From: Eubacteriales bacterium
GTDB taxonomy: Bacteria; Bacillota; Clostridia; Oscillospirales; Oscillospiraceae
Length of the DNA stretch: 62,954 nucleotides
Assembly: GCA_030539285.1 (NCBI GenBank)
Contig: JAUNSH010000009.1
Coordinates: 1-62,954 of the forward strand
Direction of reading: 5' to 3'
The notes below the pieces were generated by a model, which ran no database searches, had not been told where the DNA came from, and saw nothing but the letters and a program-made list of their open reading frames with translations. A program made the translations under genes and the position numbers. Below, piece after piece: positions 11,316 to 24,393 of the stretch (positions are counted from its first letter, which is position 1; every line of letters begins with the position of its first letter).

Positions 11316-11318
11316 CAA

Positions 11319-11353
11319 AATCCGCGCTTCCAACCGGAGGCGCGGATTTTTTA
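11319..11353 (+). terminator. Intrinsic terminator after ridA
   Basis: AAAATCCGCGC and GCGCGGATTTT arms with a T run. Confidence 0.88.
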
Positions 11354-11404
11354 TGCCTTATGCCAACACGTTTTCCCCGCGGCAGTGCGTGGGAGCGTTT
11401 CCCG

Positions 11405-11583: not shown

Positions 11584-11609
11584 TGTTTTTCAACCTTTCT
11601 GTCCTGTGT

Positions 11610-11813
11610 TTTGGCAAGAATGTGGTGCTGGTTCCAGAAGATGAAAAGCATTTCACCGCTACCCTGCCCGTGGAGTTGTCCCCGCCCTTCTTTGCGTGGA
11701 TTGCGACTTTTGGACGGGGTGCGAAGATACTTTCGCCTGCGACCGCAGTTGAAAAAATGCGGGATTTCATAAGTAGATGTGCCGATATGTATAAAGATGA
11801 TGGGCAGAAGTAA
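11610..11813 (+). pseudogene. C-terminal fragment of a WYL-domain regulator
   Basis: The reading frame from 11610 encodes FGKNVVLVPEDEKHFTATLP and then a segment matching the C-terminal WYL extension, with SPPFFAWIATFGRGAKILSP and AVEKMRDFISRCADMYKDDG, before a TAA stop. The DNA-binding and WYL core are absent and no start codon with a ribosome site is present, so it is a truncated relic. It lies tail to tail with the 11890-12825 integrase and belongs to the degraded sister element. Confidence 0.6.
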
Positions 11814-11835
11814 AGACTTCTCCCCATTTGATATA

Positions 11836-11888
11836 TAGTTGATGATAGATGATGCCAAGATGATGGTGAGTTGATGGAAGATGATGCC
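11836..11888. repeat. Short direct repeats AGTTGATGAT/AGATGATG downstream of integrase 2
   Basis: Five irregular copies of a motif around GATGATG, including AGTTGATGATAG and GAGTTGATGG, lie immediately after the integrase stop. A similar cluster follows the other integrase gene at 20329-20382. Possible integrase arm-type or excisionase sites, by analogy. Confidence 0.5.
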
Positions 11889-11889
11889 C

Positions 11890-12825
11890 TCATGCTTTCA
11901 TCCGCACCCGTTCCTGTTTCAAACTACGGATGATATTTACCTTCTCAATGTCTTTTTGTAAATCACTGGTCAGAATATTCAAGTAATTTTCGGTAATTGC
12001 CAAGGAACTATGTCCGAGTATCTTTTGGAGTGTCACCACAGAACCCCCCATCGTTGCCCATTTCTTTGCGAATGTGTGCCGGAAGCGGTGAACGCCAGTC
12101 TGTTCCACTCCCCGTTCGTGGCAGTAGTCCCAAATTGCGTGGTAACAACTGCTTCGGGTTAGTTGTTTCCCATAGACAGAGAAGAAAAGCCAATCGTCAA
12201 TGCCCCCACCACGGTATTGGAGATATTCTTGAAGAATTTTGATGATGTCCTCATTCAGGGGGATAATCAGGGGCTTGCGGTTCTTTGTAGTATTCACATA
12301 GACCACCGAATTATCAAAGTCAATGTCCCTGATTTTGATATTCACCAAACTGTTCTGACGGATTCCAGTAGAGAGAAGGAAATTGACAATGACCCAACTG
12401 CGGTAGGTGGAGAAGATACACTTGCGGACATCGGGCTTTTTCAGCAGTTTCCGCAATTCATCGTCCGTATAGGTCTGGATGGGAGCCTTGTCTGCTTTTG
12501 GAAGTTGGATTTCAAAGTGGGGAATGTATTGGCACTTCATAAAGAACCGCATCAGGGTTTTCAAATCCCGTGCGTAGGTTCCCATAGAAACCTCATTCAA
12601 ATTGGGGTCATCCCGCAGGGCAATGTAGAAGTCGGTCATGGTCTGCTTATTCAGGGAAGAAATGGGAGTATCGGGCGGGATTCTCTTGTAAATCTGCTTG
12701 ATGGATTCCTGATAATGGTGAATTGTTCCGTCCCGCAGGTTCCTTGCTTTACAGTCCAGAATGTATTCCCTGAAACCGTCCTCAAATGTCTTTTCTCTTG
12801 GGAAGCACATCCTCATTTTCTTCAT
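11890..12825 (-). CDS. Tyrosine recombinase (integrase) of the sister element
   Basis: 311 aa. A core-binding SAM-like domain (about 15-110) is followed by the catalytic domain. Catalytic residues are visible as Arg in STGIRQNSLVN, Lys in TTKNRKPLI, HRFRH, His in LGHSS, and the nucleophile Tyr in ITENYLN. There is no N-terminal arm-binding domain of the type seen in the larger integrase at 20412-21671. It starts 147 bp from the left att repeat, the same relative arrangement as integrase 1. It appears intact, although the element it served is reduced to fragments. Confidence 0.9.
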   Translation of the reverse strand: MKKMRMCFPREKTFEDGFREYILDCKARNLRDGTIHHYQESIKQIYKRIPPDTPISSLNKQTMTDFYIALRDDPNLNEVSMGTYARDLKTLMRFFMKCQYIPHFEIQLPKADKAPIQTYTDDELRKLLKKPDVRKCIFSTYRSWVIVNFLLSTGIRQNSLVNIKIRDIDFDNSVVYVNTTKNRKPLIIPLNEDIIKILQEYLQYRGGGIDDWLFFSVYGKQLTRSSCYHAIWDYCHERGVEQTGVHRFRHTFAKKWATMGGSVVTLQKILGHSSLAITENYLNILTSDLQKDIEKVNIIRSLKQERVRMKA

Positions 12826-12851
12826 AAAAACACCCCTAAAAACGCAAAAAT

Positions 12852-12896
12852 AGGAAGCACATCATTACTCTTTTGGGGAGTAGGATGTGCTTCCTT
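12852..12896. terminator. Hairpin between integrase 2 and the left att repeat
   Basis: AGGAAGCACATC and GATGTGCTTCCT arms with an A/T-rich flank on both sides. It could end transcripts from either direction. The interval 12826-12971 holds no gene. Confidence 0.6.
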
Positions 12897-12971
12897 GTTT
12901 CATTTTTGCGAAAATTGGGGTTTGAACTTTTTAGGTTCAAAAGTAAGGGTTTTACCCTCTTACTTCAAAGA

Positions 12972-13040
12972 TTCCTCAACAGCAACAGCCACAGAAACGG
13001 TCATACCGACCATGGGGTTGTTGCCCGCGCCCAGGAAGCC
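12972..13040. mobile_element. Left attachment repeat (attL): displaced 3' end of the GGGtGRT gene
   Basis: 69 bp match 21859-21927 with three mismatches. A 32-bp identical core lies at 12994-13025. Read on the minus strand it still encodes the end of the GGGtGRT protein, GMTVSVAVAVEESLK followed by TAA. The three differences keep the protein sequence. The repeat marks the outer boundary of the integrated element. Confidence 0.93.
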
Positions 13041-13139
13041 TCGGAAGCACGCTTCCGTGAGGGAAAAAGCCCTAAAAATACCATTTCTTCAAACATTTAG
13101 ACCGCTTTCTAAACAGCTATTTCTTTTATTCCACTTCCG

Positions 13140-13175
13140 TATGTGGACAAATGTGGACGAAAATTTTTTGTCCAC
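13140..13175. repeat. Integrase arm-type site candidate, left end
   Basis: Two direct TGTGGAC units 11 bp apart, followed by GAAAATTTTTTGTCCAC, which forms a short palindrome with the second unit. The same block occurs at 21709-21743 beside the right end, in the same orientation. Confidence 0.7.
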
Positions 13176-13255
13176 ACCGTATTCTTATTATATCAGGCAC
13201 TCAATTTTTTGCAAGTGTTTCTTTTGAATCAAAGCGGTTTCAATCACTCTAAACC

Positions 13256-13305
13256 ATCAACTTTTAACAACAATCCACCAGAATCATCAACTTTCTGGTG
13301 GATTG
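13256..13305. repeat. Terminator hairpin of the WYL gene with two AAAGTTGATGRT motifs
   Basis: CAATCCACCAGAA and the inverted arm TTCTGGTGGATTG form a stem immediately downstream of the WYL gene on the minus strand. Two minus-strand copies of AAAGTTGATG (near 13258 and in the hairpin loop) match the repeats at 20329-20382. The remainder of 13041-13314 shows no gene. Confidence 0.6.
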
Positions 13306-13314
13306 TATCATCTT

Positions 13315-14388
13315 TTATTCACTTTGGTATCTGCCCTGAATATCACCAAGGAACTTCTGGAAGTCCGCAACCACATCTGGCGGTGAAACAATCAATGCCT
13401 TTTTGCGAAAGCCGCAAATCCAGCCATAGAATTGGTCGCTGATTTCCACATCGGTAGTCACAATAAAATGGCGGTCATCGTCTGGCTTATAGTAAGTTTC
13501 CGCACCAGTGCCAAAACGTTCTACAACTGTGTCCAAAAGAGGATTGATAAAGCGGATGCCTACTTGTTTCCGTTCTCCACCGAACATAGAGAAAACTCGT
13601 TGGGTGTATGTTCCCAAATCAATTCTCTCGAAGACTTCTTTGCCCTCTCTTGGCTCGTCCAACATGGCAACCTCTTTCATTCTATCCAAACGGAAGGTTC
13701 TCATGTCATGTTTTTTGCTGTCATAGGCCAGAAGATAATAGTTGCCCTCGTTGATAATCAGCTTGAAGGGGCTGAAGATGTACGGTGCGCCTTTCCTACG
13801 CTCTACTTGCTGGGTGCGGTTTTGGAGGGTATACTTTTGATATTTGAAGGTGATTTTTCTGTTTTCCCGAATAGCCTGATTTATTGTCAGCATATAGCCC
13901 ATCAGGTAGCGGTTGGTGGTTTTCGTTCTGCCAACCAAGTAAACCTCATTTCTCAATTCCTGAATCTGAGGTTCGCTGCAAAGGCTTTCGATTGCTTCCA
14001 AAAGTCCCTGTTCCTGTTTCTTGGAAATGAATTTGGAAGCCCGAACACACTCGGCAAGAAGCCGAAGGTCATCGAACTCATAGGGGCGGCGGGCTATTTT
14101 GTAGCCATGAAGGGACGGGTCATATTCAATTTCATAATTCAGAAGGTCACGTTCCTGAATCGTCACTTCTTGGTCTCGTGCCAGAAGCTCCATAAGGTCT
14201 TTAATATCCCGTGAGACAGAGTGTCGTTCAGCGGAAATACCATACTCTTCCAGAATATCCTTGATTTCAGAGATTCCAAGAGCATGGGTTTCATCGGTGT
14301 GTTTCAGAAGCAGATTCCACACAATCAGAGATTTGTATTTCTGTCCCTTTGACTTACCCCCTGTCTTCTTGGCTTTTGATTCTTCCAT
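13315..14388 (-). CDS. WYL-domain transcriptional regulator
   Basis: 357 aa. After a basic N-terminal tail comes a winged-helix region with LLLKHTDETHALGISEIKDI and SRDIKDL, then the WYL domain (about 150-240, with LIINEGNYYLLAYDSKKHDM and FRLDRM) and the C-terminal extension ending YGWICGFRKKALIVSP. Such proteins are often repressors of mobile-element or defence genes and sense nucleic acid ligands; the role here is inference. AGGAGG 9 bp upstream supports the ATG at 14388. A 24-bp palindrome lies between its -10 box and ribosome site, suggesting autoregulation. Confidence 0.9.
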   Translation of the reverse strand: MEESKAKKTGGKSKGQKYKSLIVWNLLLKHTDETHALGISEIKDILEEYGISAERHSVSRDIKDLMELLARDQEVTIQERDLLNYEIEYDPSLHGYKIARRPYEFDDLRLLAECVRASKFISKKQEQGLLEAIESLCSEPQIQELRNEVYLVGRTKTTNRYLMGYMLTINQAIRENRKITFKYQKYTLQNRTQQVERRKGAPYIFSPFKLIINEGNYYLLAYDSKKHDMRTFRLDRMKEVAMLDEPREGKEVFERIDLGTYTQRVFSMFGGERKQVGIRFINPLLDTVVERFGTGAETYYKPDDDRHFIVTTDVEISDQFYGWICGFRKKALIVSPPDVVADFQKFLGDIQGRYQSE

Positions 14389-14402
14389 CTGCGGCAGCCT
14401 CC

Positions 14403-14426
14403 TATTTGAAAGTTCATTTTCAAATA
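14403..14426. promoter_or_regulatory. Palindromic operator in the WYL gene leader
   Basis: TATTTGAAA and TTTCAAATA flank GTTCAT. It follows the likely -10 TATACT of the WYL promoter (minus strand) and precedes AGGAGG. Its 18-bp core differs by one base from the sites at 15688-15705 and 17332-17349. Confidence 0.65.
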
Positions 14427-14475
14427 GTATAGCATACCAAAAGGAAAGAGAAAAGGTGATAATTCCCAAATTCTA

Positions 14476-14504
14476 TTGAATTTTTGGGACAGGTATGGTA
14501 TCAT
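14476..14504 (+). promoter_or_regulatory. Promoter of the candidate RNA
   Basis: TTGAAT (14476-14481) and TATCAT (14499-14504), spacing 17 bp, firing away from the WYL gene into the structured region that starts at 14511. Confidence 0.6.
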
Positions 14505-14510
14505 ACTTTT

Positions 14511-14668
14511 GCGACGCAATTCAATAGTGGAATTTCGTAGGGAATGTGTTTTTTGCTTTGGCAAAAACGCATTCTCCGCTTTGCGTTCCCTACGGGTTTC
14601 CAAAGAATTGCGTCGCAGCAATGGAGCTATGCGTTTTTCGGTGCGTAGCTTCGGCTACGCACTTTTTT
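14511..14668 (+). ncRNA. Candidate structured small RNA ending in an intrinsic terminator
   Basis: GCGACGCAATTC (14511-14522) pairs perfectly with GAATTGCGTCGC (14605-14616). Inside it CGTAGGGAA pairs with TTCCCTACG, and a G/TTTTTGC hairpin forms the core. A final GTGCGTAGC-TTCG-GCTACGCAC stem is followed by six T. With a promoter at its 5' side this has the layout of an independent RNA of about 155 nt. It could alternatively be a leader that attenuates the lipoprotein gene 24 bp downstream, or a mobile hairpin repeat. Confidence 0.55.
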
Positions 14669-14691
14669 ATTTCAGGGAGAGTTGGGTACTA

Positions 14692-15591
14692 ATGAAAAAG
14701 ATACTATCTTTGATTCTTGCGTCCACAATTTGTCTGACCTGTGTCGCCTGTGGGGGCTCAGGTATGAAAAACGAAATGGTAAAACAGGGGACAGTAGTCG
14801 AACCTGTAAAACAGTCATCTGTTTACGAATTGCCCAAAGATATTCAGATGTATGTTCCCGGAAGCTCCATCAAAACGGACTTTGGCAGCATTACGATTAT
14901 GGATGCTGCATTTTGCGAAAAAGCACAGCTTTATTTCACAAAGAACAGCCGTTCCAGCAAAACGACAATCAACGGGAAAACAACCGAAAGTTATGAGGAA
15001 TTTATCTATCCCGGATACATTTCCATGATGGACGGAAAACTGATTTTTGCCTTAAAAACTGTGCTGGTCAATAATAGCGGAAACGATATTGAGGTTTGGA
15101 ATCTGTCTGTGAAGGCTTTTTTCACAGAGGATGAGCCTGTCTATTTCAGCACGGGCGGAAACTATGAAATCTCTGATGAAGCGTACAGTTCTCTTCCGAA
15201 TGGAGCGAGTGGCGAGTATATTTTCGCTGCTTTGCTCCCTGTGGAACAATACCAGAATGCTTCAGGATGCCTGCTTGAAGTAGGCAGCGAACAGCTTGGA
15301 TTCCCCTATGATAGTATCAACATTTATAACGCACTTGGTTTCCAAACTGATGATAATACTGTGGTTACTATTGACAATCTGCTTAAGACCGCCGCAGACG
15401 CCGCCGCCCCCACCGATGCAAATACTGAAGGAAAATCCGAGACGCAACCCTCTGATGTGGATGTGAAATACTATTGCCTCGGCTGCAATCCTGAATGCCC
15501 ATCTGGTAGTTGTAGTAGTGAACCATCTCATGCAGAAGGGTTGCGGCAACCTCTTCAATGGGTCTGGACAGCGTTCCCGCTCCGATGTTGA
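14692..15591 (+). CDS. Lipoprotein of unknown function with a foreign 3' end
   Basis: 299 aa as read. Signal MKKILSLILASTICLTCVAC with a Cys at residue 20 marks a lipoprotein. The body contains ITIMDAAFCEKAQLYFTKNS and TVLVNNSGNDIEVWNLSVKA, a beta-rich pattern like extracellular DUF4352/DUF5067-type domains. From about residue 260 the frame runs antisense through the truncated SprT gene, so the last 40 or so residues are probably not native. Start chosen at ATG 14692 behind GGGAGAG. It is preceded by a terminator hairpin, so its expression may require read-through or a promoter I cannot see. Confidence 0.7.
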   Translation: MKKILSLILASTICLTCVACGGSGMKNEMVKQGTVVEPVKQSSVYELPKDIQMYVPGSSIKTDFGSITIMDAAFCEKAQLYFTKNSRSSKTTINGKTTESYEEFIYPGYISMMDGKLIFALKTVLVNNSGNDIEVWNLSVKAFFTEDEPVYFSTGGNYEISDEAYSSLPNGASGEYIFAALLPVEQYQNASGCLLEVGSEQLGFPYDSINIYNALGFQTDDNTVVTIDNLLKTAADAAAPTDANTEGKSETQPSDVDVKYYCLGCNPECPSGSCSSEPSHAEGLRQPLQWVWTAFPLRC

Positions 15592-15781
15592 TTTCATGGG
15601 TGCCGCCCAGCGTGGAAACCCAAGTGTCCTCCCGCAGAGAGAAATGACCATAGGCTTTTGGCGTGGACTGGATGGTGATGGTGGGTCTTGAAAGTTCACT
15701 TTCAAAGAACTCTGCGTTCAGAAGGTCGAAAACCTTGTTGAGATACCCTGCGACACGATTGTAACTGGTGAGCTGCTTCAT
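15383..15781 (-). pseudogene. SprT-like zinc protease, C-terminally truncated
   Basis: 132 aa as read. MKQLTSYNRVAGYLNKVFDL leads into FFESELSRPTITI and the zinc motif LLHEMVHYYN, then GIQDCSRGN. SprT-like proteins normally continue with a conserved His-containing segment and a C-terminal part. Here the frame changes to unrelated residues at about position 15475, where it overlaps the lipoprotein gene on the other strand. This looks like a recombination junction that cut off the 3' half. AAGGAGG 8 bp upstream of ATG 15781 is excellent. Activity is doubtful. Confidence 0.75.
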
Positions 15782-15863
15782 GGTGTTTTCCTCCTTGATT
15801 TTGGAGGGGCAGAGGCTTATAATAAGCATACCCCTGAATGACTGACACGTTTTTTCTTGGGCT

Positions 15864-15901
15864 GCCCTTGCCAGAGTTGCCGCTCTGACAAGGGCTTTTT
15901 T
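15864..15901 (+). terminator. Hairpin with T run between the SprT fragment and the 15903-16178 gene
   Basis: GCCCTTG...CAAGGGC with an inner CAGAG/CTCTG stem, then six T on the plus strand. The minus-strand side lacks a strong T run, so it is best placed to stop transcripts coming from the left. Confidence 0.65.
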
Positions 15902-15902
15902 A

Positions 15903-16178
15903 TCAGGCGATGGAGAAGCGGCGGCTGGCGGTCTGCTTGATGAAATCCTTGTAGACCTCGGGCATCACCTTTTTGAATGCGGTGCTGTCGAATCTCTGGC
16001 TCAGAACGGGCGTCCAGCGAACAATGTACTGTCCAGCCTCCATCTCTTCGGTGTTGCGGTTCAGCATCTCGGTTTTGATTTCATCCCGAAGGGCTTCAGC
16101 TTCTGCCTTGGCTTCTTCAATCAGGGCTTCCAGTTCCTTCAGGGCTTCGATCTTAGAGGTGATTTCGATGGTAGACAT
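15903..16178 (-). CDS. Small conserved mobile-element protein, coiled coil
   Basis: 91 aa. Residues 1-40 (MSTIEITSKIEALKELEALI and following) form a charged heptad helix. The C-terminal half has AGQYIVRWTPVLSQRFDSTA and ends KQTASRRFSIA, a pattern I know from many clostridial prophages and conjugative elements without assigned function. AAGGAG 10 bp upstream sets the start at 16178. Its promoter is the left arm of the three-operator switch, so it is probably repressed by the small Xre protein. Confidence 0.8.
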   Translation of the reverse strand: MSTIEITSKIEALKELEALIEEAKAEAEALRDEIKTEMLNRNTEEMEAGQYIVRWTPVLSQRFDSTAFKKVMPEVYKDFIKQTASRRFSIA

Positions 16179-16274
16179 AGTGGTTATCTCCTTTGTTGTT
16201 TTAATTTGTTCACCCATGTTGTAGCGTTTGAAAGGGGTCGCTTACCGGGTGGCCTCTGTTGTCCCCTCTGTTTG

Positions 16275-16386
16275 ATTATATTTTACACTAGAACTAGTAC
16301 ATAGTCAATATGGGATTGTGTACTAAATCTAGTGCTCTAATTTGTGTATTTTTGTACTAGATTTAGTGCCTATCTTGTGGTATAAT
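16275..16386. promoter_or_regulatory. Divergent promoter region with three palindromic operators
   Basis: Three copies of GTACTAGWTYTAGTGC lie at 16285-16300 (inverted, slightly degenerate), 16320-16335 and 16354-16369, with starts 35 and 34 bp apart. The left copy abuts a minus-strand TATAAT (16275-16280); the right copy lies where the -35 of the plus-strand extended -10 TGGTATAAT (TATAAT 16381-16386) should be. This is the layout of a phage-type repressor switch. Confidence 0.85.
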
Positions 16387-16408
16387 CAAGTGCAAGGATG
16401 GTGATAGT

Positions 16409-16636
16409 ATGCCTATTGTGTACAATAAACTCTTTAACCTGTTAAAAGAGAAAAACAAAACTATGTATGATTTGCGAAAAGATAAAGTTATCGGAACCGC
16501 AACGCTGGAAAAAATGCGAAAGGGAATGGGTCATGTTGATACCCGTTCCATTGAAAGCCTTTGTGAATACTTAGATTGTCAGCCCGGCGATTTAATGGAG
16601 TATGTAAAAGAGGCGGATGTTCAGGAAACGGTGTGA
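16409..16636 (+). CDS. Small Xre-family (Cro/C1) repressor
   Basis: 75 aa, a single helix-turn-helix domain: MPIVYNKLFNLLKEKNKTMY, then LRKDKVIGTATLEKMRKG as recognition region and SIESLCEYLDCQPGDLMEYV, the HTH_26 type. It probably binds the three operators just upstream and controls both itself and the divergent 15903-16178 gene. It is one of only two plus-strand genes in the element. Confidence 0.88.
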   Translation: MPIVYNKLFNLLKEKNKTMYDLRKDKVIGTATLEKMRKGMGHVDTRSIESLCEYLDCQPGDLMEYVKEADVQETV

Positions 16637-16895
16637 TTGCTTTCGTGAACAAAATCACCCTTTGATTGAACAAAAACTCCCCGCTTCTGGAAGCTCCAAA
16701 AGTGGGGAGGAAATGAATTGTTAAATTGGACAGGCAGTGGGGGTATATTTCGGGATAAAAAATTTGTCAATCCTCCAATAGGGGTATAGTGTGGCTCACA
16801 CTCCCACCAAGAGTGATTTTCATTTGGGGAAACGGTTTTTACGCCTGTTCCCGCAAACACGCACCCAAGGCCGGGAGGCGAACAGCAACGGAGAA
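16637..16895. other. Intergenic stretch without a gene
   Basis: Contains an imperfect hairpin with CTCCCC (16677) and GGGGAG (16704) that could slow transcripts leaving the Xre gene, but no T run. Nothing else recognised. Confidence 0.5.
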
Positions 16896-17318
16896 TCACA
16901 GGAACTGCTTCAGAACTTCTCTGGCATCCACCGCATTCACATCCCACTTGCGCCAATTTTCTGCTTTTGGAATCTGCGTATTCAGCACGGGGCGGTACTA
17001 TCGGATGTATTCGCCCTCTTTGCTGCCGATTTCTTCCTCGACTTCCGCATACCTTTTTCTTTTGGCATCGTAAAGCACATCAAAGTCAATGCGGTGTCCC
17101 TTGCGCTGGGCTTCTGCCAGAAGTCGGTATTTCTTTTCAGAGCCGGTGCGGATTCCCACATAATGCTACGCTACACGCACCAGCATATTTTCGCTCTTGC
17201 CTATGTATACAATCTACCCATCCAGCTTGATGCAGTAAATGCCCGGATGCTCGTACTTTGGGGCAAGTCCCCTGCGGCGCAGCATGGCGCAAGCATTTTC
17301 TTCATAGGTATTTGGCAT
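16896..17318 (-). pseudogene. GIY-YIG endonuclease interrupted by three in-frame TAG codons
   Basis: 140 codons plus TGA in one uninterrupted frame apart from amber codons at positions 35, 51 and 107 (17214-17216, 17166-17168, 16998-17000). Visible nuclease motifs: GIYCIKLDG, VYIGKS (the YIG), Arg 48, and Glu in KEGEYIR. Downstream NTQIPKAENWRKWDVNAVD is intact. GGGGGTG and an ATG at 17318 are good. No insertion or deletion is present. It is either recoded (amber read as an amino acid, likely Gln at 51) or a young pseudogene with three point mutations. An 18-bp palindrome and a TATAAT lie upstream. Confidence 0.75.
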
Positions 17319-17331
17319 TTCTTCACCCCCT

Positions 17332-17349
17332 TTGAAAGTGAACTTTCAA
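17332..17349. promoter_or_regulatory. Palindromic operator upstream of the GIY-YIG gene
   Basis: TTGAAAGTTCACTTTCAA on the minus strand, between a minus-strand TATAAT (17376-17381) and the ribosome site of the GIY-YIG gene. One base differs from the site in front of the WYL gene, which suggests the WYL protein controls both. Confidence 0.65.
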
Positions 17350-17458
17350 TTTGTTATCTCTTAATCCTTACATATATATTATACAATATTTTTTAATTAA
17401 AATCAAAATAGACCGTTTATCTGGCGTTTTCTGAACTTTTCCAGAAGAAAACAGAAAA

Positions 17459-17520
17459 AGCGGCAGCCCGCCTCACGATGCCCCTTGCTGGGTTACATAA
17501 TCGTGTAGCGGGCTGCCGCC
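17459..17520. terminator. Long bidirectional terminator hairpin
   Basis: GCGGCAGCCCGC pairs with GCGGGCTGCCGC, extended by CACGAT/ATCGTG. T-rich tails lie on both sides. It closes the minus-strand transcript of the 17525-20086 genes. Confidence 0.85.
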
Positions 17521-17524
17521 TCTT

Positions 17525-17731
17525 TTATTTCCAGTCCTTAAACAAATCCTTCATCGCCGCATCCAGTGCAACTTGAAGCTCTTTTTCCAATTTTTTATCT
17601 CCCCGCTTCTGGGAGTTATCGTATATCTGCCGGGAAGCTGCCCCCATTATCTCATAGGGTGTGTAGCCATCCAGATACATGGTGGGGTAGTAGTCTGGGA
17701 TATATCTTCCGAATTGTTCTAACATTGTCAT
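17525..17731 (-). CDS. Small protein of unknown function
   Basis: 68 aa: MTMLEQFGRYIPDYYPTMYL followed by a charged helical tail ending KDLFKDWK. The motif DGYTPYEIMGAASRQIYDN resembles short proteins next to replication genes in clostridial elements, but no function is known to me. AAGGAG 9 bp upstream supports ATG 17731. It is the last gene of the leftward transcript before the terminator and is separated from the winged-helix gene by a 66-bp dyad. Confidence 0.7.
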   Translation of the reverse strand: MTMLEQFGRYIPDYYPTMYLDGYTPYEIMGAASRQIYDNSQKRGDKKLEKELQVALDAAMKDLFKDWK

Positions 17732-17770
17732 CTTTTGGATTCTCCTTCGTCTGAATAATACAAATAAATT

Positions 17771-17836
17771 AGTCGTTTTTCCATGAGCATAGCCGACGAA
17801 GGAGGCGTATGCGGTTAATGGAAACAACGACTAATC
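17771..17836. repeat. 66-bp imperfect dyad between the winged-helix gene and the 68-aa gene
   Basis: ATTAGTCGTTTTTCCAT at the left is inverted as ATGGAAACAACGACTAAT at the right, with GCATA/GTATG inside. Position directly downstream of the replication-type gene makes a replication origin, a nick site or an RNA structure possible. No T run follows, so it is not a standard terminator. Confidence 0.6.
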
Positions 17837-17887
17837 ATCTGTTCATTATTACTTGAAGAAGATAGAGGGAAGACTGATTTGATTTGC

Positions 17888-18370
17888 TTAAAATATAAAC
17901 TCAGCACTATTTATATTTTTATCTATCAAATTATCTGTATTATTATATATTTCTTTACTGCCTTGCGAAGTTACCAGTCTGCCTCGCAAATCATCGTTTC
18001 CGTCCGGCAAACTGTTCAGTTCGCAAGGCGAAACCGCTTCCTTATCTTCTTTTCTCTTGGGGACTTCGTAGAAGTCATAAACATTGCTGTTCTCTTTGCG
18101 AGGAACAAGGTAGCCCTTCTCTATCATCAGGTTCACATACTTGTGATAGGAGGTTTTCTTTATCCCGGCCTCCCGTTCCGCTGCCTCTTGGGACAGAGCA
18201 AAATCAAAGCCATCCCTGTTTCCAGCGATGTAGAGATAGAGCTGTAACCCATACGGCCCCAAATCCTTATTGGCAGCATACCAATTATCTTTGCTGATTT
18301 GGAGGAAGTTTTTATCGCACTTCTGGCGATTCACATGAACCACTTTCTGGTTCGGCACGGTGTTCGGCAT
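17888..18370 (-). CDS. Winged-helix, replication-initiator-like protein
   Basis: 160 aa. MPNTVPNQKVVHVNRQKCDK is followed by FLQISKDNWYAANKDLGPYG and a winged-helix core (LSQEAAEREAGIKKTSYHKYVNLMIEKGYL, about residues 58-90), then a charged tail. Similar proteins are common in clostridial prophages and integrative elements and resemble DnaD/RepA N-domain folds; a role in element replication is inference. AGGAGGGGGAG upstream of ATG 18370. It lies 14 bp after the 155-aa paralog, in the same transcript. Confidence 0.75.
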   Translation of the reverse strand: MPNTVPNQKVVHVNRQKCDKNFLQISKDNWYAANKDLGPYGLQLYLYIAGNRDGFDFALSQEAAEREAGIKKTSYHKYVNLMIEKGYLVPRKENSNVYDFYEVPKRKEDKEAVSPCELNSLPDGNDDLRGRLVTSQGSKEIYNNTDNLIDKNINSAEFIF

Positions 18371-18384
18371 AGCTCCCCCTCCTG

Positions 18385-18852
18385 TTAGCCCACTTTGGGC
18401 ATCTTCTGCTTGTACTCTTGGATATCAGGAGCCTTTTTGGGAACTACAGTCAGCTTCCCATCATTGAGCATAACCGCTTTCTTATAGTCGGGGAACTGCG
18501 CTTTGAACCAGTCGCATACATACTTGTAAGGGCTTGCCAGAGCAACGGACGCAGCCTTGACAGTTTCAAACACTTCCAGCAGCTCTTCTGCGTTCTCGTA
18601 GACCCGAATGTGCTTTTCCATGTTCTCATAGGTCAAACGGTGGTTCGCCTTGGCGGTGGTCTGCACACGCCCGGAGACAACAACCTCCTTCATGCCGGGG
18701 AAGTCGCTGCGAATATTCTTCAGGAGGGTGTTTTCCTTTGTGCCATACTTGGCAGCGGCAGCCGCAAACTTGTAATTCATAATGACGGTGTTGGTGTCAA
18801 ACAGAATCTTGTAGCCCTCACGACCGGGCTTTACCATAGAAGTGTTAGCCAT
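18385..18852 (-). CDS. Paralog family member 1, function unknown
   Basis: 155 aa. It shares its plan with the proteins at 18879-19382 and 19739-20086: an N-terminal segment with Ala-rich helix and KYGTKENTLLKNIRSDFPGM, a central LTYENMEKHIRVYENAEELL helix pair, and a C-terminal SPYKYVCDWFKAQFPDYKKA block. No catalytic motif, signal or membrane segment. ATG 18852 has AAGGTG 6 bp upstream; a GTG at 18861 is less well placed. It follows member 2 by 26 bp, in the same transcript. Confidence 0.8.
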   Translation of the reverse strand: MANTSMVKPGREGYKILFDTNTVIMNYKFAAAAAKYGTKENTLLKNIRSDFPGMKEVVVSGRVQTTAKANHRLTYENMEKHIRVYENAEELLEVFETVKAASVALASPYKYVCDWFKAQFPDYKKAVMLNDGKLTVVPKKAPDIQEYKQKMPKVG

Positions 18853-18878
18853 TGTATTCACCTTTCCTTTCTTCTGGA

Positions 18879-19382
18879 TTACATTCCAGAGACAAAATCA
18901 TATTCAGCTTCCTCGGTGTCCTCTGCCTCAATGACGGCAGAGGACTTGACCACGGCGAAGATGTTCTGCTTCTGGGCTTCCTTCTGGGCTTCTGCCTCAA
19001 AGAACGCCTTGTAGCTGTCGTAGTTCTCAAAGGTCTTCCTGAACCATGCCAGAACGCAGCGGTAGGGGTTGGTCTGAACCTTGGACAGCGCAATCTGCTT
19101 CTTAAACTCTACCATCAGGGCAGCGGCATCGTCCTGTTCCCGGATGTAGATTGCCATGTTCTCATAGGTCATGTTCTTGGTGGAGGTCTTCTTGTCGGGG
19201 TTCTTCTTGATGGTCTTGGTCACCATCTCAGCGGCGGGACAGTCCAGACGGATTTCCTTCCACATCTTGTATTCGGGTGTGCCGAAGATACGGGCGTTCT
19301 TGGCGAACTCCTTAGTCACCAGAACATGGGTGTCATCAACGAAACGGGGGGCGTTCTTCTTAGCAGCAGTAGTGGTCTTCAT
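18879..19382 (-). CDS. Paralog family member 2, function unknown
   Basis: 167 aa. N-terminal basic tail (MKTTTAAKKNAPRF), then VLVTKEFAKNARIFGTPEYK and EIRLDCPAAEMVTKT, the central MTYENMAIYIREQDDAAALM block, TNPYRCVLAWFRKTFENYDS, and an acidic C-terminus. Aligns by eye with members 1 and 3 along their whole shared length. Its transcript starts at a promoter of the TGGTANRTTTNTGTTCC class and has a leader of about 55 nt. A cytosolic DNA- or protein-binding role is possible but unproven. Confidence 0.82.
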   Translation of the reverse strand: MKTTTAAKKNAPRFVDDTHVLVTKEFAKNARIFGTPEYKMWKEIRLDCPAAEMVTKTIKKNPDKKTSTKNMTYENMAIYIREQDDAAALMVEFKKQIALSKVQTNPYRCVLAWFRKTFENYDSYKAFFEAEAQKEAQKQNIFAVVKSSAVIEAEDTEEAEYDFVSGM

Positions 19383-19442
19383 AGTAATTTCTCCATTCTC
19401 ATTTTTTATTTGTGGGGGTATGTTCCCCTGTTTTCTGAGGCT

Positions 19443-19486
19443 ATTATATCATTCGTGTTCTTTTAACATGGAACATAAATGTACCA
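19443..19486 (-). promoter_or_regulatory. Element promoter P1 (activator-type)
   Basis: On the minus strand TGGTACATTTATGTTCC (19470-19486), 19 bp, GATATAAT (19443-19450). There is no TTGACA-like box at -35. From the -10 onward 31 bp (19422-19452) are identical to the P2 region at 20124-20154. It drives members 2 and 1 and the winged-helix gene. Confidence 0.82.
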
Positions 19487-19503
19487 TTTGAAAAAGAACC
19501 ATG

Positions 19504-19686
19504 TCAGATGATTGTTTCGTTGAAGGTGGGATAGCGGTTCTTATACTCGAAGTATATCTGCGCTTCGGGACTGGCAAGCTGATAGGATTTCTCCTTGATT
19601 GTTTTGGGAATAAACAATGTATTTCGGCTAATGTCAGCCAGAATAGCAAGTACTCGCATTTCATTCTTCTCAATAGGCATTTTCAT
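19504..19686 (-). CDS. Small protein of unknown function
   Basis: 60 aa: MKMPIEKNEMRVLAILADIS, then NTLFIPKTIKEKSYQLASPE and a tail with aromatic residues (AQIYFEYKNRYPTF). No family recognised. AAGGAG 9 bp before ATG 19686 and a dedicated promoter (P3) of the element class make it a real gene. The N-terminal helix resembles winged-helix starts, which is only a suggestion. Confidence 0.7.
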   Translation of the reverse strand: MKMPIEKNEMRVLAILADISRNTLFIPKTIKEKSYQLASPEAQIYFEYKNRYPTFNETII

Positions 19687-19732
19687 TTTGGTAATCTCCT
19701 TTGTGATTTAGGTTTCTGTTCTTTACATTGAT

Positions 19733-19776
19733 ATTTTATCAAGCGGCTTCGTTTAGGGTGGAACAAAAATCTACCA
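19733..19776 (-). promoter_or_regulatory. Element promoter P3 (activator-type)
   Basis: On the minus strand TGGTAGATTTTTGTTCC (19760-19776), 19 bp, GATAAAAT (19733-19740). It overlaps the last codons of paralog member 3 and precedes the 60-aa gene. The leader differs from those of P1 and P2. Confidence 0.75.
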
Positions 19777-20086
19777 CTCCACTATACTCGGCAAATTCGC
19801 CTCTGAACCACTTGCTGGCGGCAGGATAGCCGAACTGAGAGCGCACAGACAAGAATGCTTCCATTCTTTCGGGGGCGTGCTGGGCAATGTACTGCTCCAT
19901 ACTGGCATAGGACAGACCACGATTAGCGTTGTAGATAACATGGGGCTGCTTGACTGTAACCATAAATTCAGGGAGGTCACGCATGATACGGATAAGCTGC
20001 TCGTATTCTCTGGTGTTGGGACGACTTGCCAGCTTCATTTCCTTTGCTGTCAGAACAATGCGCTTGCTTACAAACTCGATTTTCAT
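19739..20086 (-). CDS. Paralog family member 3, function unknown
   Basis: 115 aa, the shortest member. MKIEFVSKRIVLTAKEMKLA, RPNTREYEQLIRIMRDLPEF, LSYASMEQYIAQHAPERMEA and YPAASKWFRGEFAEYSGVVD follow the same order as the blocks in members 1 and 2. It lacks their C-terminal tails. The start at 20086 is supported by GAGGTT upstream and by its position behind promoter P2. Its last codons contain the P3 motif. Confidence 0.8.
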   Translation of the reverse strand: MKIEFVSKRIVLTAKEMKLASRPNTREYEQLIRIMRDLPEFMVTVKQPHVIYNANRGLSYASMEQYIAQHAPERMEAFLSVRSQFGYPAASKWFRGEFAEYSGVVDFCSTLNEAA

Positions 20087-20145
20087 AATGTTAACCTCAT
20101 TTCGTTTTATTTTCGGGGTTTTGTGTTCCCCTGTTTTCTGAGGCT

Positions 20146-20189
20146 ATTATATCAAACGCCTTTGGTGGGTTAGGAACATAAACATACCA
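20146..20189 (-). promoter_or_regulatory. Element promoter P2 (activator-type)
   Basis: On the minus strand TGGTATGTTTATGTTCC (20173-20189), 19 bp, GATATAAT (20146-20153). Same architecture as P1 and P3. It lies just after the terminator of the integrase gene, so it starts a new unit. Confidence 0.82.
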
Positions 20190-20207
20190 TCAAAGAAAAC
20201 AGACAAA

Positions 20208-20241
20208 AGAAAAATGCAGCCCCGTGATGGAGCTGCATCAT
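20208..20241 (-). terminator. Terminator of the integrase transcript
   Basis: On the minus strand ATGCAGC...GCTGCAT with a T-rich tail (TTTTTCTTTT). Confidence 0.75.
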
Positions 20242-20328
20242 GCTCGGTGAAAGGAGCGGGTGGCGACTGGTATGAAGTGCTTCAGAGCGGCGTTCACGCA
20301 CGACTATCACTTAGCTCTTGAAGACTAT

Positions 20329-20382
20329 AAAGTTGATGATACTGACTGTAGAGTTCTTGAAAGTTGATGGTAGTTGATGATT
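20329..20382. repeat. AAAGTTGATGAT repeats downstream of integrase 1
   Basis: Three plus-strand copies (20329, 20359, 20371) of AAGTTGATGRT lie within 54 bp of the integrase stop. Two inverted copies sit near the left end (13256-13295). Candidate accessory-factor or integrase arm sites. Confidence 0.55.
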
Positions 20383-20411
20383 TAGAACGATTGAGTGGAG
20401 TTTACGTCATC

Positions 20412-21671
20412 TTAGTACATATTCTCAATGACGGCGTTGCCTTTCTCTCGCAGAGCATCTGTCAAGTGTTGATAGATATTCATGGTTACATCAATCTTTT
20501 TATGTCCCAGCCGCCGCTGTACATACTTCAAGGGCGCACCGTTTTCTACCAGCATGGTTGCGTGCGTATGTCTCAAACTATGGAAATCGAACTCTGGCAA
20601 GTGAAGCTGTTCATGGATAATCTGTGTTGTGTACTGCATCGTTCTCAAATTGATGTATTCCCCGTTCTCCCGTCTGCAAACAAAGTCCACCTCTTTGTCT
20701 ATTGGATTTTCTGTGATTCGCTTGCTGGAATCTTCATAATAATGCTTGTATCTCTCAGCAAAATACGCAGCCGCCCGCACTTGTCTGTCCCGTTCTCTCC
20801 ATAGCAAATCAGTCAATACACTATCCATATCGATTGTGCGGTTTGAATCACACTTTGGCGCAGAAAAATACCAAAAGCCGGATTCGGCGTATTTGCTGCC
20901 GTTGGTTCTTTGCTTTTCTTCCTTGCTTCTGGGAAACTGCTTCCACTGGATTTGCTTGGAGACAGTAAGCTTTTTGTTCTCCAAATCAATGTCATCCCAA
21001 GTCAATGCGTACACTTCGCCAATCCTCAGTCCGCAGCGATAACCAATCATCATGGGAATATAGGATGAACTACCTTCTGGAAATCTTTCAAAAATGCGGT
21101 TCATCGTATCTTTGGGAAGATAACTGTGGGGGTCTGACCTTGTTGGAACAGCATTCAGTTCGCACCGTGGAATCCTAAGATTATGGGCGGGAGATAGCTG
21201 AATCAAACCGCAATTCACCGCATAAGTCATGGATTTGGAAATGATACCCCGCAATGTGCTGAGGGTGTTTTTTGAATAACCATCATTGTATTTGTCCTGA
21301 AGGAATTTCTGAAGTCGTTCCCTGTTTAGCCGCCTTACCTGATAAGAACCAAGTTCAGGCTTGATGTGGATTCTGATTCTCTTCCTGTAATTCAGAAGGG
21401 TTGTTTCCTTCAGATTGTACTTGCATTCCTTTTCCATCCATTCGTCCAGAAAATCAGCATAACTGATATCGGACGGTCTTTCCGACAAACCGCACAGGCA
21501 ATATCGCTTCCATGCTTCAATACCAGCTTGTCTGGCTTCCTCTTCGGACAGGAATCCTCCTTTGCTGAGCCACTTACGTTCGCCTCCTACTGGTGCTGTT
21601 TCAAAGCGGTACTCGTAGGTTTTTCCATGCTTCACTGACTTGCGTTCCCTGATTCGTACTTCCTCAAACAT
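20412..21671 (-). CDS. Tyrosine integrase of the element
   Basis: 419 aa. N-terminal arm-binding domain (YEYRFETAPVGGERKWLSKG, about 15-60), core-binding domain (YADFLDEWMEKECKYNLKET), and catalytic domain with Arg in YRCGLRIGEVYAL, HSLRHTHATML, His in LGHKKID and nucleophile Tyr in MNIYQHLTD. This is the Tn916/phage Int class. GGAGG 6 bp before ATG 21671. It lies 188 bp from the right att repeat and presumably catalyses insertion into and excision from the GGGtGRT gene end. Confidence 0.94.
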   Translation of the reverse strand: MFEEVRIRERKSVKHGKTYEYRFETAPVGGERKWLSKGGFLSEEEARQAGIEAWKRYCLCGLSERPSDISYADFLDEWMEKECKYNLKETTLLNYRKRIRIHIKPELGSYQVRRLNRERLQKFLQDKYNDGYSKNTLSTLRGIISKSMTYAVNCGLIQLSPAHNLRIPRCELNAVPTRSDPHSYLPKDTMNRIFERFPEGSSSYIPMMIGYRCGLRIGEVYALTWDDIDLENKKLTVSKQIQWKQFPRSKEEKQRTNGSKYAESGFWYFSAPKCDSNRTIDMDSVLTDLLWRERDRQVRAAAYFAERYKHYYEDSSKRITENPIDKEVDFVCRRENGEYINLRTMQYTTQIIHEQLHLPEFDFHSLRHTHATMLVENGAPLKYVQRRLGHKKIDVTMNIYQHLTDALREKGNAVIENMY

Positions 21672-21708
21672 ACTAATCCTCCATCTGTCCCAGCCTTCCA
21701 CCTGCTAT

Positions 21709-21743
21709 GTGTGGACGATTGTGGACGAAAATTTTTTGTCCAC
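21709..21743. repeat. Integrase arm-type site candidate, right end
   Basis: TGTGGAC twice, then GAAAATTTTTTGTCCAC, nearly identical to the block at 13140-13175. Confidence 0.7.
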
Positions 21744-21783
21744 GGAAAAACGGTTGTTTGGGGAAATAGCAAGGCAATTAGAG

Positions 21784-21821
21784 CGCAAAAAAATGCTCCC
21801 AACCAAGCGGTCAGGAGCATT
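21784..21821 (-). terminator. Terminator after the GGGtGRT gene
   Basis: On the minus strand AATGCTCC...GGAGCATT followed by seven T. It is supplied by the element, because it lies inside the att repeats. Confidence 0.85.
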
Positions 21822-21843
21822 TTCATGCTATATTTTGAAGAAA

Positions 21844-22845
21844 TTAGCCCTTCAGGCTTTCCTCAACAGCGACAGCCACGGAAACGGTCATACCGACCAT
21901 GGGGTTGTTGCCGGCGCCCAGGAAGCCCATCATTTCCACGTGGGCGGGGACGGAGGAGGAACCGGCGAACTGGGCGTCGCTGTGCATACGGCCCATGGTG
22001 TCGGTCATGCCGTAGGAAGCGGGGCCGGCTGCCATGTTGTCGGGGTGCAGGGTACGGCCCGTGCCGCCGCCGGAGGCCACGGAGAAGTACTTCTTGCCCT
22101 GCTCGATGCACTCCTTCTTGTAGGTGCCGGCAACGGGGTGCTGGAAGCGGGTGGGGTTGGTAGAGTTGCCGGTGATGGAAACGTCCACGCCCTCGTGGTG
22201 CATGATGGCAACGCCCTCGCGGACATCGTCAGCACCGTAGCAGCGGACAGCGGCCCGCTCGCCGTCGGAGTACTTGTACTCCTTGACGATGGTCAGCTCG
22301 CTGGTGTAGTAGTCGAACTTGGTCTGCACATAGGTGAAGCCGTTGATCCGGGAGATGATCTGAGCGGCGTCCTTGCCCAGGCCGTTCAGGATGACCCGCA
22401 GGGGCTCCTTACGGGCCTTGTTGGCGGAGCGGGCGATGCCGATAGCGCCCTCGGCGGCGGCGAAGGACTCGTGGCCGGCCAGGAAGGCGAAGCACTTGGT
22501 CTCGTCCCGCAGCAGCATAGCGCCCAGGTTGCCGTGGCCTAGGCCAACCTTGCGGTCCTCAGCGACGGAGCCGGGGATGCAGAAGGCCTGCAGGCCGATG
22601 CCGATGGCCTCAGCGGCCTCAGCGGCGGTCTTGACACCCTTCTTCAGAGCGATGGCGGCGCCCATGCAGTAGGCCCAAGCCACGTCCTCGAAGCAGATGG
22701 GCTGAATGCCCTTGACGATCTCGTAGGGATCGAAGCCCTTGGCCTGGCAGATCTCGCGGCACTCCTCAACGGAAGCAAGGCCATACTGAGCCAGAACGCC
22801 GTTGATCTTGTCGATTTTTCTTTCGTAACCTTCAAACAAAGCCAT
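21844..22845 (-). CDS. GGGtGRT protein
   Basis: 333 aa. Contains the family-naming motif SGGGTGRTLHPDNMAAGPAS near residue 264, with GHGNLGAMLLRDETKCFAFL and GNSTNPTRFQHPVAGTYKKE. The family is found in anaerobes next to NifU-like scaffold proteins, as here, and its function is not established; a role in Fe-S or sulfur handling is inferred from context. The last codons come from the integrated element. ATG 22845 follows GAGGAGG. It is 15 bp downstream of its partner gene in one transcript. Confidence 0.93.
   Translation of the reverse strand: MALFEGYERKIDKINGVLAQYGLASVEECREICQAKGFDPYEIVKGIQPICFEDVAWAYCMGAAIALKKGVKTAAEAAEAIGIGLQAFCIPGSVAEDRKVGLGHGNLGAMLLRDETKCFAFLAGHESFAAAEGAIGIARSANKARKEPLRVILNGLGKDAAQIISRINGFTYVQTKFDYYTSELTIVKEYKYSDGERAAVRCYGADDVREGVAIMHHEGVDVSITGNSTNPTRFQHPVAGTYKKECIEQGKKYFSVASGGGTGRTLHPDNMAAGPASYGMTDTMGRMHSDAQFAGSSSVPAHVEMMGFLGAGNNPMVGMTVSVAVAVEESLKG
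21859..21927. mobile_element. Right attachment repeat (attR) inside the GGGtGRT gene
   Basis: Matches 12972-13040 with three mismatches, all leaving the encoded protein unchanged. The identical 32-bp core (21881-21912) is where strand exchange most likely occurs. Confidence 0.93.
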
Positions 22846-22860
22846 CTTAGCGTCCTCCTC

Positions 22861-23553
22861 TTATTCGTGACGGGGGTCGATGTACTTCGCGGCACCGGCG
22901 AAGCGGCCGTAGGAACCCTTGGCCTTCTCCAGAGCGGTGTTCGCGTCGTCGCCCTTCTTGATGAAGTCCATCATCTTGCCCAGATTGATGAACTCGTAAC
23001 CGATGATCAGGTTGTCCTCGTCCAGAGCGCAGCGGGTGACATAGCCCTCTGCCATCTCCAGGTAACGGGGGCCCTTGGCCTTGGTGGCAAACATGGTGCC
23101 CACCTGGCTGCGCAGGCCCTTACCCAGATCCTCCAGAGAAGCGCCAACGGCGAGGCCGTCCTCAGAGAAAGCGGACTGGCTGCGGCCATAGACGATCTGC
23201 AGGAACAGCTCCCGCATGGCGGTGTTGATGGCGTCGCACACCAGGTCGGTGTTCAGAGCCTCCAGCAGAGTCTTGCCGATGAGGATCTCGGAAGCCATAG
23301 CGGCGGAGTGGGTCATGCCGGAGCAGCCCAGAGTCTCGACCAGAGCCTCCTCGATGATGCCTTCCTTCACATTCAGGGTCAGCTTGCAGGCACCCTGCTG
23401 GGGAGCGCACCAGCCCACACCGTGGGTGAAACCGCTGATGTCCTTGATTTCCTTAACCTGGACCCACTTGCCCTCTTCGGGAATGGGAGCGGGGCCGTGA
23501 TAGGCGCCCTTGGCCACGGAGCACATATTCTGTACTTCTGCACTATAAATCAT
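22861..23553 (-). CDS. NifU/IscU-like Fe-S scaffold protein
   Basis: 230 aa. MIYSAEVQNMCSVAKGAYHG leads; the conserved cysteines appear in VGWCAPQQGACKL, LGCSGMTHSAAMASE and TRCALDEDN. These match the IscU-type ligand pattern within a larger variant typical of GGGtGRT neighbours. ATG 23553 has AAGGA upstream; a longer frame from 23574 is less likely. Strong promoter upstream; first gene of the two-gene unit. Confidence 0.88.
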   Translation of the reverse strand: MIYSAEVQNMCSVAKGAYHGPAPIPEEGKWVQVKEIKDISGFTHGVGWCAPQQGACKLTLNVKEGIIEEALVETLGCSGMTHSAAMASEILIGKTLLEALNTDLVCDAINTAMRELFLQIVYGRSQSAFSEDGLAVGASLEDLGKGLRSQVGTMFATKAKGPRYLEMAEGYVTRCALDEDNLIIGYEFINLGKMMDFIKKGDDANTALEKAKGSYGRFAGAAKYIDPRHE

Positions 23554-23630
23554 GGCAATTTTCCTTTCTTTCAAAAGACGTTATTTCGCCTTTGGATTTA
23601 CTCTTTGGAATACCGAGGTTTTCCGCAGAT

Positions 23631-23659
23631 ATTATACAGTCTGCGGCAGGAAATGTCAA
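23631..23659 (-). promoter_or_regulatory. Consensus promoter of the scaffold-GGGtGRT operon
   Basis: TTGACA (23654-23659), 17 bp, TATAAT (23631-23636) on the minus strand: perfect hexamers and spacing. This predicts high expression. Confidence 0.92.
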
Positions 23660-23708
23660 TTCCCCATGTGATAAATTCGGTATAAATATATCAGTTGTGT
23701 CCCATATA

Positions 23709-23737
23709 ATAACGGGCGGGTTATTGCCCCGCCCGCC
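23709..23737 (-). terminator. Terminator after rpe
   Basis: CGGGCGGG and CCCGCCCG arms with loop GCAATAA, just after the rpe stop. Confidence 0.75.
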
Positions 23738-23742
23738 TGTCG

Positions 23743-24393
23743 TCATTCCTGAATGGTCTTCACAAAGGCCGCCCGGTCCGGGGCCTTGAAGTAAGCGGAG
23801 CCGGTGACCATGACGTCCACCCCATTCTGCTTGCACAGGATCTGGGTCACTGTGTCGATGCCGCCGTCCACCTCGATGAGGCACTCCGGGTTCACTTCGT
23901 CCAGCGCAGCGCGCAGGCGGCGGGTCTTTTCCAGCATATCCGTCATGAAGGACTGGCCGCCGAAGCCCGGCTCCACTGTCATCACCAGGATCAGGTCACA
24001 TTTAGTTAGGTACGGCAGCGCCATCTCCACCGGGGTGCCCGGCTTCAGGGACAGACCCGCCTTGCAGCCCATGGCCCGGATCATCTCCAAACACGCCATG
24101 ATATTCTCCGGGGTGTCCGCCTCCAGGTGAACGGTCAGCCAGTCCGCTCCCGCCTTGACGAACCGCCCGACATAGCGGATGGGCCGATCGATCATCAGGT
24201 GCACGTCCAGCGGCAGCTTCGTTACCCGGCGGATGTCCCGCAGAACAGGCAGGCCAATGGTGATATTGGGCACAAAGGTGCCGTCCATCACATCCACATG
24301 GACCCAATCGCCGCCGTTTTCCTCAATATTATGAATATCCCGCTCCAGATTGACAAAATCCGCAGACAGGATGGAAGGCGCAATTTTTGCCAT
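23743..24393 (-). CDS. rpe: Ribulose-phosphate 3-epimerase
   Basis: 216 aa, family length. A TIM barrel with MAKIAPSILSADFVNLERDI, the metal and catalytic segments VHVDVMDGTFVPNI and LDVHLMI, MTVEPGFGGQSF, and ECLIEVDGGID. It interconverts ribulose 5-phosphate and xylulose 5-phosphate in the pentose phosphate pathway. AGGAG 8 bp upstream of the ATG. It stands alone with its own terminator. Confidence 0.97.
   Translation of the reverse strand: MAKIAPSILSADFVNLERDIHNIEENGGDWVHVDVMDGTFVPNITIGLPVLRDIRRVTKLPLDVHLMIDRPIRYVGRFVKAGADWLTVHLEADTPENIMACLEMIRAMGCKAGLSLKPGTPVEMALPYLTKCDLILVMTVEPGFGGQSFMTDMLEKTRRLRAALDEVNPECLIEVDGGIDTVTQILCKQNGVDVMVTGSAYFKAPDRAAFVKTIQE

Follow-up and report, generated by a model that had tools for sequence, protein, structure and literature searches.

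Three paralogous genes at positions 18385-20086 of contig JAUNSH010000009.1 from a bacterium of the Oscillospiraceae (assembly GCA_030539285.1; the 62,954 nucleotides (nt) analysed are called the window) encode a protein family that is undescribed within the libraries searched. They lie in a small integrative element. Across related loci the constant unit is not this trio but an ordered, co-diverging gene pair, FAM-A (P0002 in the window) followed by FAM-B (P0001). This pair is placed among the core genes of a small integrative element that recurs in Clostridia, and the family's codon usage is close to what very highly expressed genes show. The element itself belongs to a known kind. The family genes of the window are the following.

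18385-18861, minus strand: P0001, FAM-B, second gene of the pair; 158 amino acids (aa), isoelectric point (pI) 9.4, codon adaptation index (CAI) 0.50 (open reading frame (ORF), BLASTP, tree clade 100/98)
18879-19382, minus strand: P0002, FAM-A, first gene of the pair; 167 aa, pI 8.4, CAI 0.67 (ORF, BLASTP, tree clade 100/100)
19504-19686, minus strand: P0004, a 60-aa ORF, a truncated fourth copy with the N-terminal domain only; CAI 0.30 (profile match, E 9.5e-10)
19739-20086, minus strand: P0003, apparently an extra diverged copy; 115 aa, CAI 0.44 (ORF, BLASTP, tree)

In single BLASTP comparisons, P0001 and P0002 are 32% identical across 106 aa (E 6e-14), P0001 and P0003 27% identical (E 2e-9), and P0002 and P0003 29% identical (E 4e-4). 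A sequence-only reading of this stretch had described three strongly diverged paralogues; these values bear it out, and such homology contradicts the possibility, raised there, that the three folds are unrelated. The sequence blocks it had listed as shared are also real, P49, M76, Y107, W113 and F114 (P0002 numbering) each being conserved in 91-96% of the aligned family sequences. Its count of three copies overlooked the truncated fourth at 19504-19686. Its lengths of 167 and 115 aa agree with the ORFs, and 155 aa corresponds to an ATG lying three codons downstream of the GTG at which the 158-aa ORF of P0001 starts. The interval between P0002 and the P0001 start is 17 nt, or 26 nt if the ATG is taken. 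When the own genome was scanned with a family profile, which itself contains the three proteins, P0001, P0002 and P0003 gave E values of 7.3e-45, 4.0e-43 and 4.0e-28, respectively.

To assign the family, P0001, P0002 and P0003 were compared with Pfam, PHROGs, NCBIfam and PADLOC; only scattered weak matches were obtained and no family was assigned. The family alignments (43 members against Pfam and PHROGs, 66 members against PADLOC and NCBIfam) behaved likewise: among the matches listed, no family was found in more than three members, the best E was 0.00087, and no curated family was assigned. The sequences of solved structures gave matches at chance level, the best to a homeodomain (E 0.05). 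Matches of the helical domain to NANOG had E values of 0.075 and 0.051 only, and none occurred among the fold matches listed. The family had been called unrecognised from the sequence, and the profile searches then suggested as a check gave no confident assignment to any known family, so that this judgement stands. Full-text literature searches turned up nothing on the family or the element among the hits listed, which does not by itself show absence from print.

P0002 and the core of P0001 were modelled with AlphaFold. The P0002 model (43-sequence alignment) had a predicted local distance difference test (pLDDT) of 83.4 and a predicted template modelling score (pTM) of 0.56; for P0001 residues 14-130 (66-sequence alignment) the values were 90.2 and 0.55, a locally confident model. 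The P0001 core is predicted to fold into two strands, two helices and a strand, followed by a loose linker and three helices. Neither model matched the PDB significantly, nor did the P0002 model match anything significantly in BFVD; a missing structural match does not prove a new fold. The structure prediction proposed in the sequence-only reading has thus been carried out for two of the three proteins, with no significant fold match.

Profile searches of 53 fetched loci, some of them overlapping, found 101 family ORFs in 52 loci. The counts of copies and of accompanying core genes refer to 43 distinct long loci and were read by eye off the gene map. At least two family copies were present in 39 of the 43 (L132 is counted with a 49-aa piece); single copies were seen in L130, L131, L133 and L134, and four copies in L047. 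Contig C66 of the own genome carries a second pair. A tree built from 88 members puts P0002 in a first-gene clade (100/100) and P0001 in a second-gene clade (100/98). On this tree the first-gene label needs 13 changes and the second-gene label 11; shuffled labels need 27.3 and 28.6, and none of 500 shuffles came as low. Near-copies contribute to this clustering. Across 35 loci, first-gene distances are correlated with second-gene distances (rho 0.55; 0 of 2000 permutations), a correlation that linkage alone could yield. The adjacent helix-turn-helix (HTH) gene occurs in three kinds, and all three are found inside the clades to which the window's pair belongs; the two genes of the pair thus appear to be held together more tightly than with their neighbour.

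The nearest relative of the element, L036, is inserted at the same gene with an integrase that is 99% identical, and it lacks both P0003 and the 60-aa remnant. P0003 has a long tree branch and no relative above 33% identity. From sequence, it appears to be an extra, fast-diverging copy and the 60-aa ORF a truncated remnant of a family member; a fusion of this remnant to the start of HTHb was considered as a candidate, from a weak 17-residue match. The likely working unit of the window is the pair P0002-P0001. The sequence-only reading had proposed three separate jobs or a three-subunit complex. The comparison supports neither, as the constant unit elsewhere is two genes and the third and fourth copies are missing from L036; conservation of gene order, which it suggested checking, holds for the pair and not for the trio. 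Superinfection exclusion or host takeover, its other suggestions, may still be what the genes serve.

Codon weights were taken from a single genome, Oscillibacter An860, because in the own genome ribosomal L2 and S13 were not found and EF-Tu domain 3 was present only as a piece at a contig end; comparison within a locus is the safer reading of the values. The reference for the per-gene CAI comprised 27 minus-strand ORFs of the An860 ribosomal region, some of them not ribosomal. For the multi-locus comparison six of these, which we take to be adk, map, secY, infA, one spurious ORF and one end fragment, were removed. The pair of An860 itself has CAI values of 0.72 and 0.60, against medians of 0.74 for the 27 ribosomal-region ORFs and 0.40 for 13 background ORFs. 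In the window, P0002 (0.67), P0001 (0.50) and P0003 (0.44) are accompanied by the core gene c16 at 0.51 and the remnant at 0.30, with the other element genes at 0.22-0.36. A family member was the best-adapted annotated gene in 28 of 32 loci, c16 in two and a resolvase in two (of the 43 loci, those with fewer than three other annotated genes and L040, which shares its contig with L036, were left out, as were ORFs under about 77 codons). Mean CAI was 0.44 for the family and 0.27 for other genes (66 against 180 genes; Mann-Whitney p 3e-12, paired p 5e-10). This codon usage suggests high expression of the pair. The proteins are basic, with a median pI of 8.9 for 34 first genes and 9.0 for 37 second genes.

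Tentatively, the pair may be an abundant nucleic-acid-binding heteromer that serves the element. FAM-A and FAM-B would associate and be produced in large amounts, and the heteromer would bind RNA or DNA through its basic N-terminal beta-beta-alpha-alpha-beta domain; the helical domain with its invariant Trp-Phe perhaps also binds nucleic acid. It could then serve to coat the DNA or transcripts of the element itself, or to protect or organise them, while the element is active. Alternatively, it might support replication of the element jointly with the adjoining HTH protein. The pairing, the company of other core genes, the separate first- and second-gene clades, the correlated distances, the mix of HTH kinds beside the pair, the codon adaptation, the basic pI and the replication-initiator-related neighbour in L037 (see below) all point to this reading.

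The same divergence and codon adaptation could also fit a strongly expressed exclusion, anti-phage or counter-defence module directed against a related element, a phage or a host defence, with divergence driven by the target. Copies are expanded in the window and in L047, the paralogues are strongly diverged, and a WYL regulator lies within the element. PADLOC gave only weak scattered matches, however, and the pair is constant beside the core genes rather than placed in the variable cargo slot. Between the window and L036 the ratio of nonsynonymous to synonymous substitution rates (dN/dS) is 0.30 for P0002 and 0.14 for P0001 (integrase 0.06), which indicates purifying selection. We regard such a module as rather doubtful.

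The genes and sites that surround the family in the window are as follows.

12963-13040, no strand: distal copy of a 78-bp direct repeat, attachment-site-like (repeat search, 91% identity, spacing 8887)
13315-14469, minus strand: WYL regulator, E 1.5e-16
15383-15829, minus strand: SprT-like metalloprotease gene, 148 aa against 215-217 aa in most relatives
15903-16217, minus strand: c16, resembling the tail of RecE-like recombination exonucleases (PHROG 6244, 1.8e-17; PHROG 434, 5.9e-14)
16409-16636, plus strand: XRE-type regulator (HTH_26), E 1.4e-15
17525-17827, minus strand: c8, a small core protein, in 16 of 53 loci scanned
17888-18370, minus strand: P0005, the HTH protein adjoining the pair (family HTHa); its relative in L037 matches PHROG 270, replication initiation protein (E 3e-7)
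20412-21701, minus strand: tyrosine recombinase (integrase 429), the integrase shared with L036
21850-21927, no strand: proximal copy of the 78-bp repeat, inside the 3' end of the gene at 21844-22845

An integrase and flanking repeats, the marks of an integrative element, are thus both present. The gene at 21844-22845 is presumably sdaAA. G+C content is 0.42-0.49 over 12001-22000 and mostly 0.52-0.62 around it. In six of 29 relatives' loci (L169, L170, L187, L188, L189, L193) an additional partial repeat lies beside the sdaAA-like gene, because of which its 3' end looks like an integration hotspot. No empty site was found for the left flank of the window's element, and the gene of that flank, presumably RidA-like, was not near sdaAA in the seven relatives checked. 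Just within both ends of the element, at 13142-13175 and 21710-21743, is a 34-bp repeat (94% identical, TGTGGAC..GTCCAC); these are perhaps recombinase arm sites.

At least two other core genes accompany the family in 36 of the 43 distinct long loci, in keeping with its description from sequence as a core part of the element. The usual order is FAM-A, FAM-B, HTH, c8, XRE (on the other strand), c16, SprT and/or DUF6809, resolvase or short recombinase, cargo slot, WYL and integrase. The integrase is on the family side in the window, L036, L041, L127, L128, L136, L139 and L143. Exceptions to the order are a reversed HTH gene in L045, L130 and L142, a resolvase ahead of the HTH gene in L137, and reversed c16 and SprT in L134. 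L046, L054, L058, L131, L132, L133 and L140 lack two core genes, some of these loci being cut by contig ends. The HTH proteins belong to three families that are mutually unrelated by hhalign (probability 3-4%). In the cargo slot are ORFs that, judged by eye, look like lipoproteins, zinc-ribbon proteins, methyltransferases or ATPases; in L128 (12310-17093) it carries DNA methyltransferase-like genes and an ATPase-like gene, also by eye, possibly restriction or defence genes.

Several observations concern single parts of the element. c16 is a free-standing small protein that matches the last part of RecE-like profiles, and it too is codon-adapted. The SprT-like gene of the window diverges past residue 120 from its 217-aa copy in L036 and is probably a decayed copy. 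Between c8 and the XRE gene, at 16791-17396, is a region that reads as a conserved plus-strand ORF (c7) in seven loci; it may run antisense to a gene or be conserved without coding for a protein. Beyond the distal repeat, relatives of integrase 311 (11890-12825) lie beside sdaAA in L043 and L044, and a WYL piece is found at 11583-11813; the stretch 11583-12825 looks like a remnant of a second element of the L043/L044 kind.

Two further explanations were weighed. An element that is small, has an integrase and carries no recognised conjugation gene might be moved in a satellite-like particle, of which the pair, abundant by codon usage, would be the structural proteins. Among the proteins scanned, however, there was no capsid, terminase, packaging or capsid-remodelling PHROG, and the queries used retrieved no family member from phages or viral contigs, so that we consider this very unlikely. 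Library scans of the element proteins likewise gave no relaxase family; the origin of transfer (oriT) was not searched for. Two short neighbouring genes in fixed order on a mobile element would also suit a toxin-antitoxin addiction module that keeps the element in place. Here both genes are homologous, basic and codon-adapted, and no toxin family was matched; if anything this is the most improbable of the explanations weighed.

Promoters of a shared type were recognised in the window at three places.

19443-19487, minus strand: promoter of P0002-P0001, TGaTATAAT at 19443-19451 with the upstream element ATGGTACATTTATGTTCC at 19470-19487 (sequence pattern, repeats)
19733-19777, minus strand: promoter-like site before the remnant, TGaTAAAAT with the upstream element at 19760-19777 (sequence pattern, repeats)
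20146-20190, minus strand: promoter of P0003, TGaTATAAT with the upstream element at 20173-20190 (sequence pattern, repeats)

The shared promoter type reported for all three paralogues therefore stands before P0003, the remnant and P0002; upstream of P0001 none of this type was seen. Across loci, a pattern search selected 38 promoters, of which a few may be wrong choices and some are mutually related: 24 have an extended -10 and two a -35-like hexamer. A strong upstream palindrome is present in 13 of the 38, against 2.6 expected from shuffles. None of the window's three promoters belongs to these 13 (p 0.37-0.82 each). The case for their upstream element comes from its threefold recurrence 19 nt before the -10 and from L036, in which the two arms of the corresponding element have changed jointly (p 0.02).

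Leaders of first genes were also compared. In 17 of 52 loci (by pattern; for example L011, L041, L057 and L135) the leader contains a small hairpin (GGGT-NGCG-ACCT); pairing of its loop with a CGC(A) further downstream would give a possible pseudoknot. This feature is absent in the window. A pairing run of at least three pairs was seen in 10 of 11 leaders against 4.9 in shuffles (4 of 2000 as high), counted on 11 of 12 aligned leaders with L091 left out. Loop and partner have changed together in L041 and L135; the run is located elsewhere in L129 and L140, and L048 has none. Comparison with Rfam gave four matches below threshold for positions 11000-24000 of the window; in six other loci it gave six tRNAs and one Gut-1 RNA.

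Palindromic promoters without a -35 raise the question of whether the pair consists of two paralogous DNA- or RNA-binding regulators of their own operon, with the promoter palindrome or leader RNA as target. The genes are the first of the operon, the proteins are basic, and some loci have the possible leader pseudoknot. Against this, the XRE, HTH and WYL proteins have low CAI and are hence likelier regulators, the window has no such leader and, to our knowledge, regulators are seldom so codon-adapted. Autoregulation by the pair is therefore unlikely.

Matches to the family alignment (own genome counted) were found in 24 of 136 genomes of the genus, 16 of 295 sampled from the order, 5 of 391 from the class and, in the phylum sample (E up to 1e-4), 1 of 398, which is the own genome. 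With P0002 as sole query, 23 of 199 relatives had matches. No homologue was found in viral contigs, plasmids or phages with P0002, in viral contigs with P0001 or a seven-member alignment, or in phages or plasmids with two further members.

The pair is thus the most recurrent unnamed part of this small element, present in 24 of the 136 genomes searched within the genus and sporadically in other Clostridia, and it is probably something that the elements need. It can serve as a marker for elements that the phage, plasmid and viral-contig searches made here missed. Its two predicted-abundant proteins can be directly tested for nucleic-acid binding, exclusion or particle formation. The nucleic-acid-binding heteromer admits a bolder version, which we hold to be a long shot: FAM-A and FAM-B would have a new fold and form a new abundant paired nucleoprotein, which in an unrecognised lineage of small integrative elements of Clostridia would serve to protect, package or copy the element genome where no genes of phage or conjugation type can be recognised, the diverged pairs and their operators providing lineage specificity.

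Among known proteins, type II KH domains (ribosomal protein uS3, NusA) offer one likeness, as the predicted N-terminal strand-strand-helix-helix-strand order fits them. S3 and NusA chains, several of them presumed to be such from their chain labels, recur among the weak Foldseek matches, all non-significant (E 0.48 or worse). The family differs in having no conserved GXXG, the loop between the helices being xGTxEY in most rows, and in having no profile match to S3. A KH assignment was not adopted, since there was no significant fold match, no GXXG in the conserved columns and an empty S3 profile comparison. Gene 32 of phage T4 encodes a single-strand-binding protein and has a leader pseudoknot. 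The family may resemble it in abundance, by codon usage, and in the possible leader pseudoknot of some loci; no relation of sequence or fold was seen and the leader feature is absent in the window, so that the likeness is by analogy only. The element as a whole resembles integrative mobilizable elements and phage-satellite islands in its size of about 9 kb, its integrase, its repeats at a gene 3' end, its regulators and its cargo slot. It differs from them in that no relaxase, terminase or capsid gene was recognised among the scanned proteins, and in that its core is the unnamed FAM-A/FAM-B pair.
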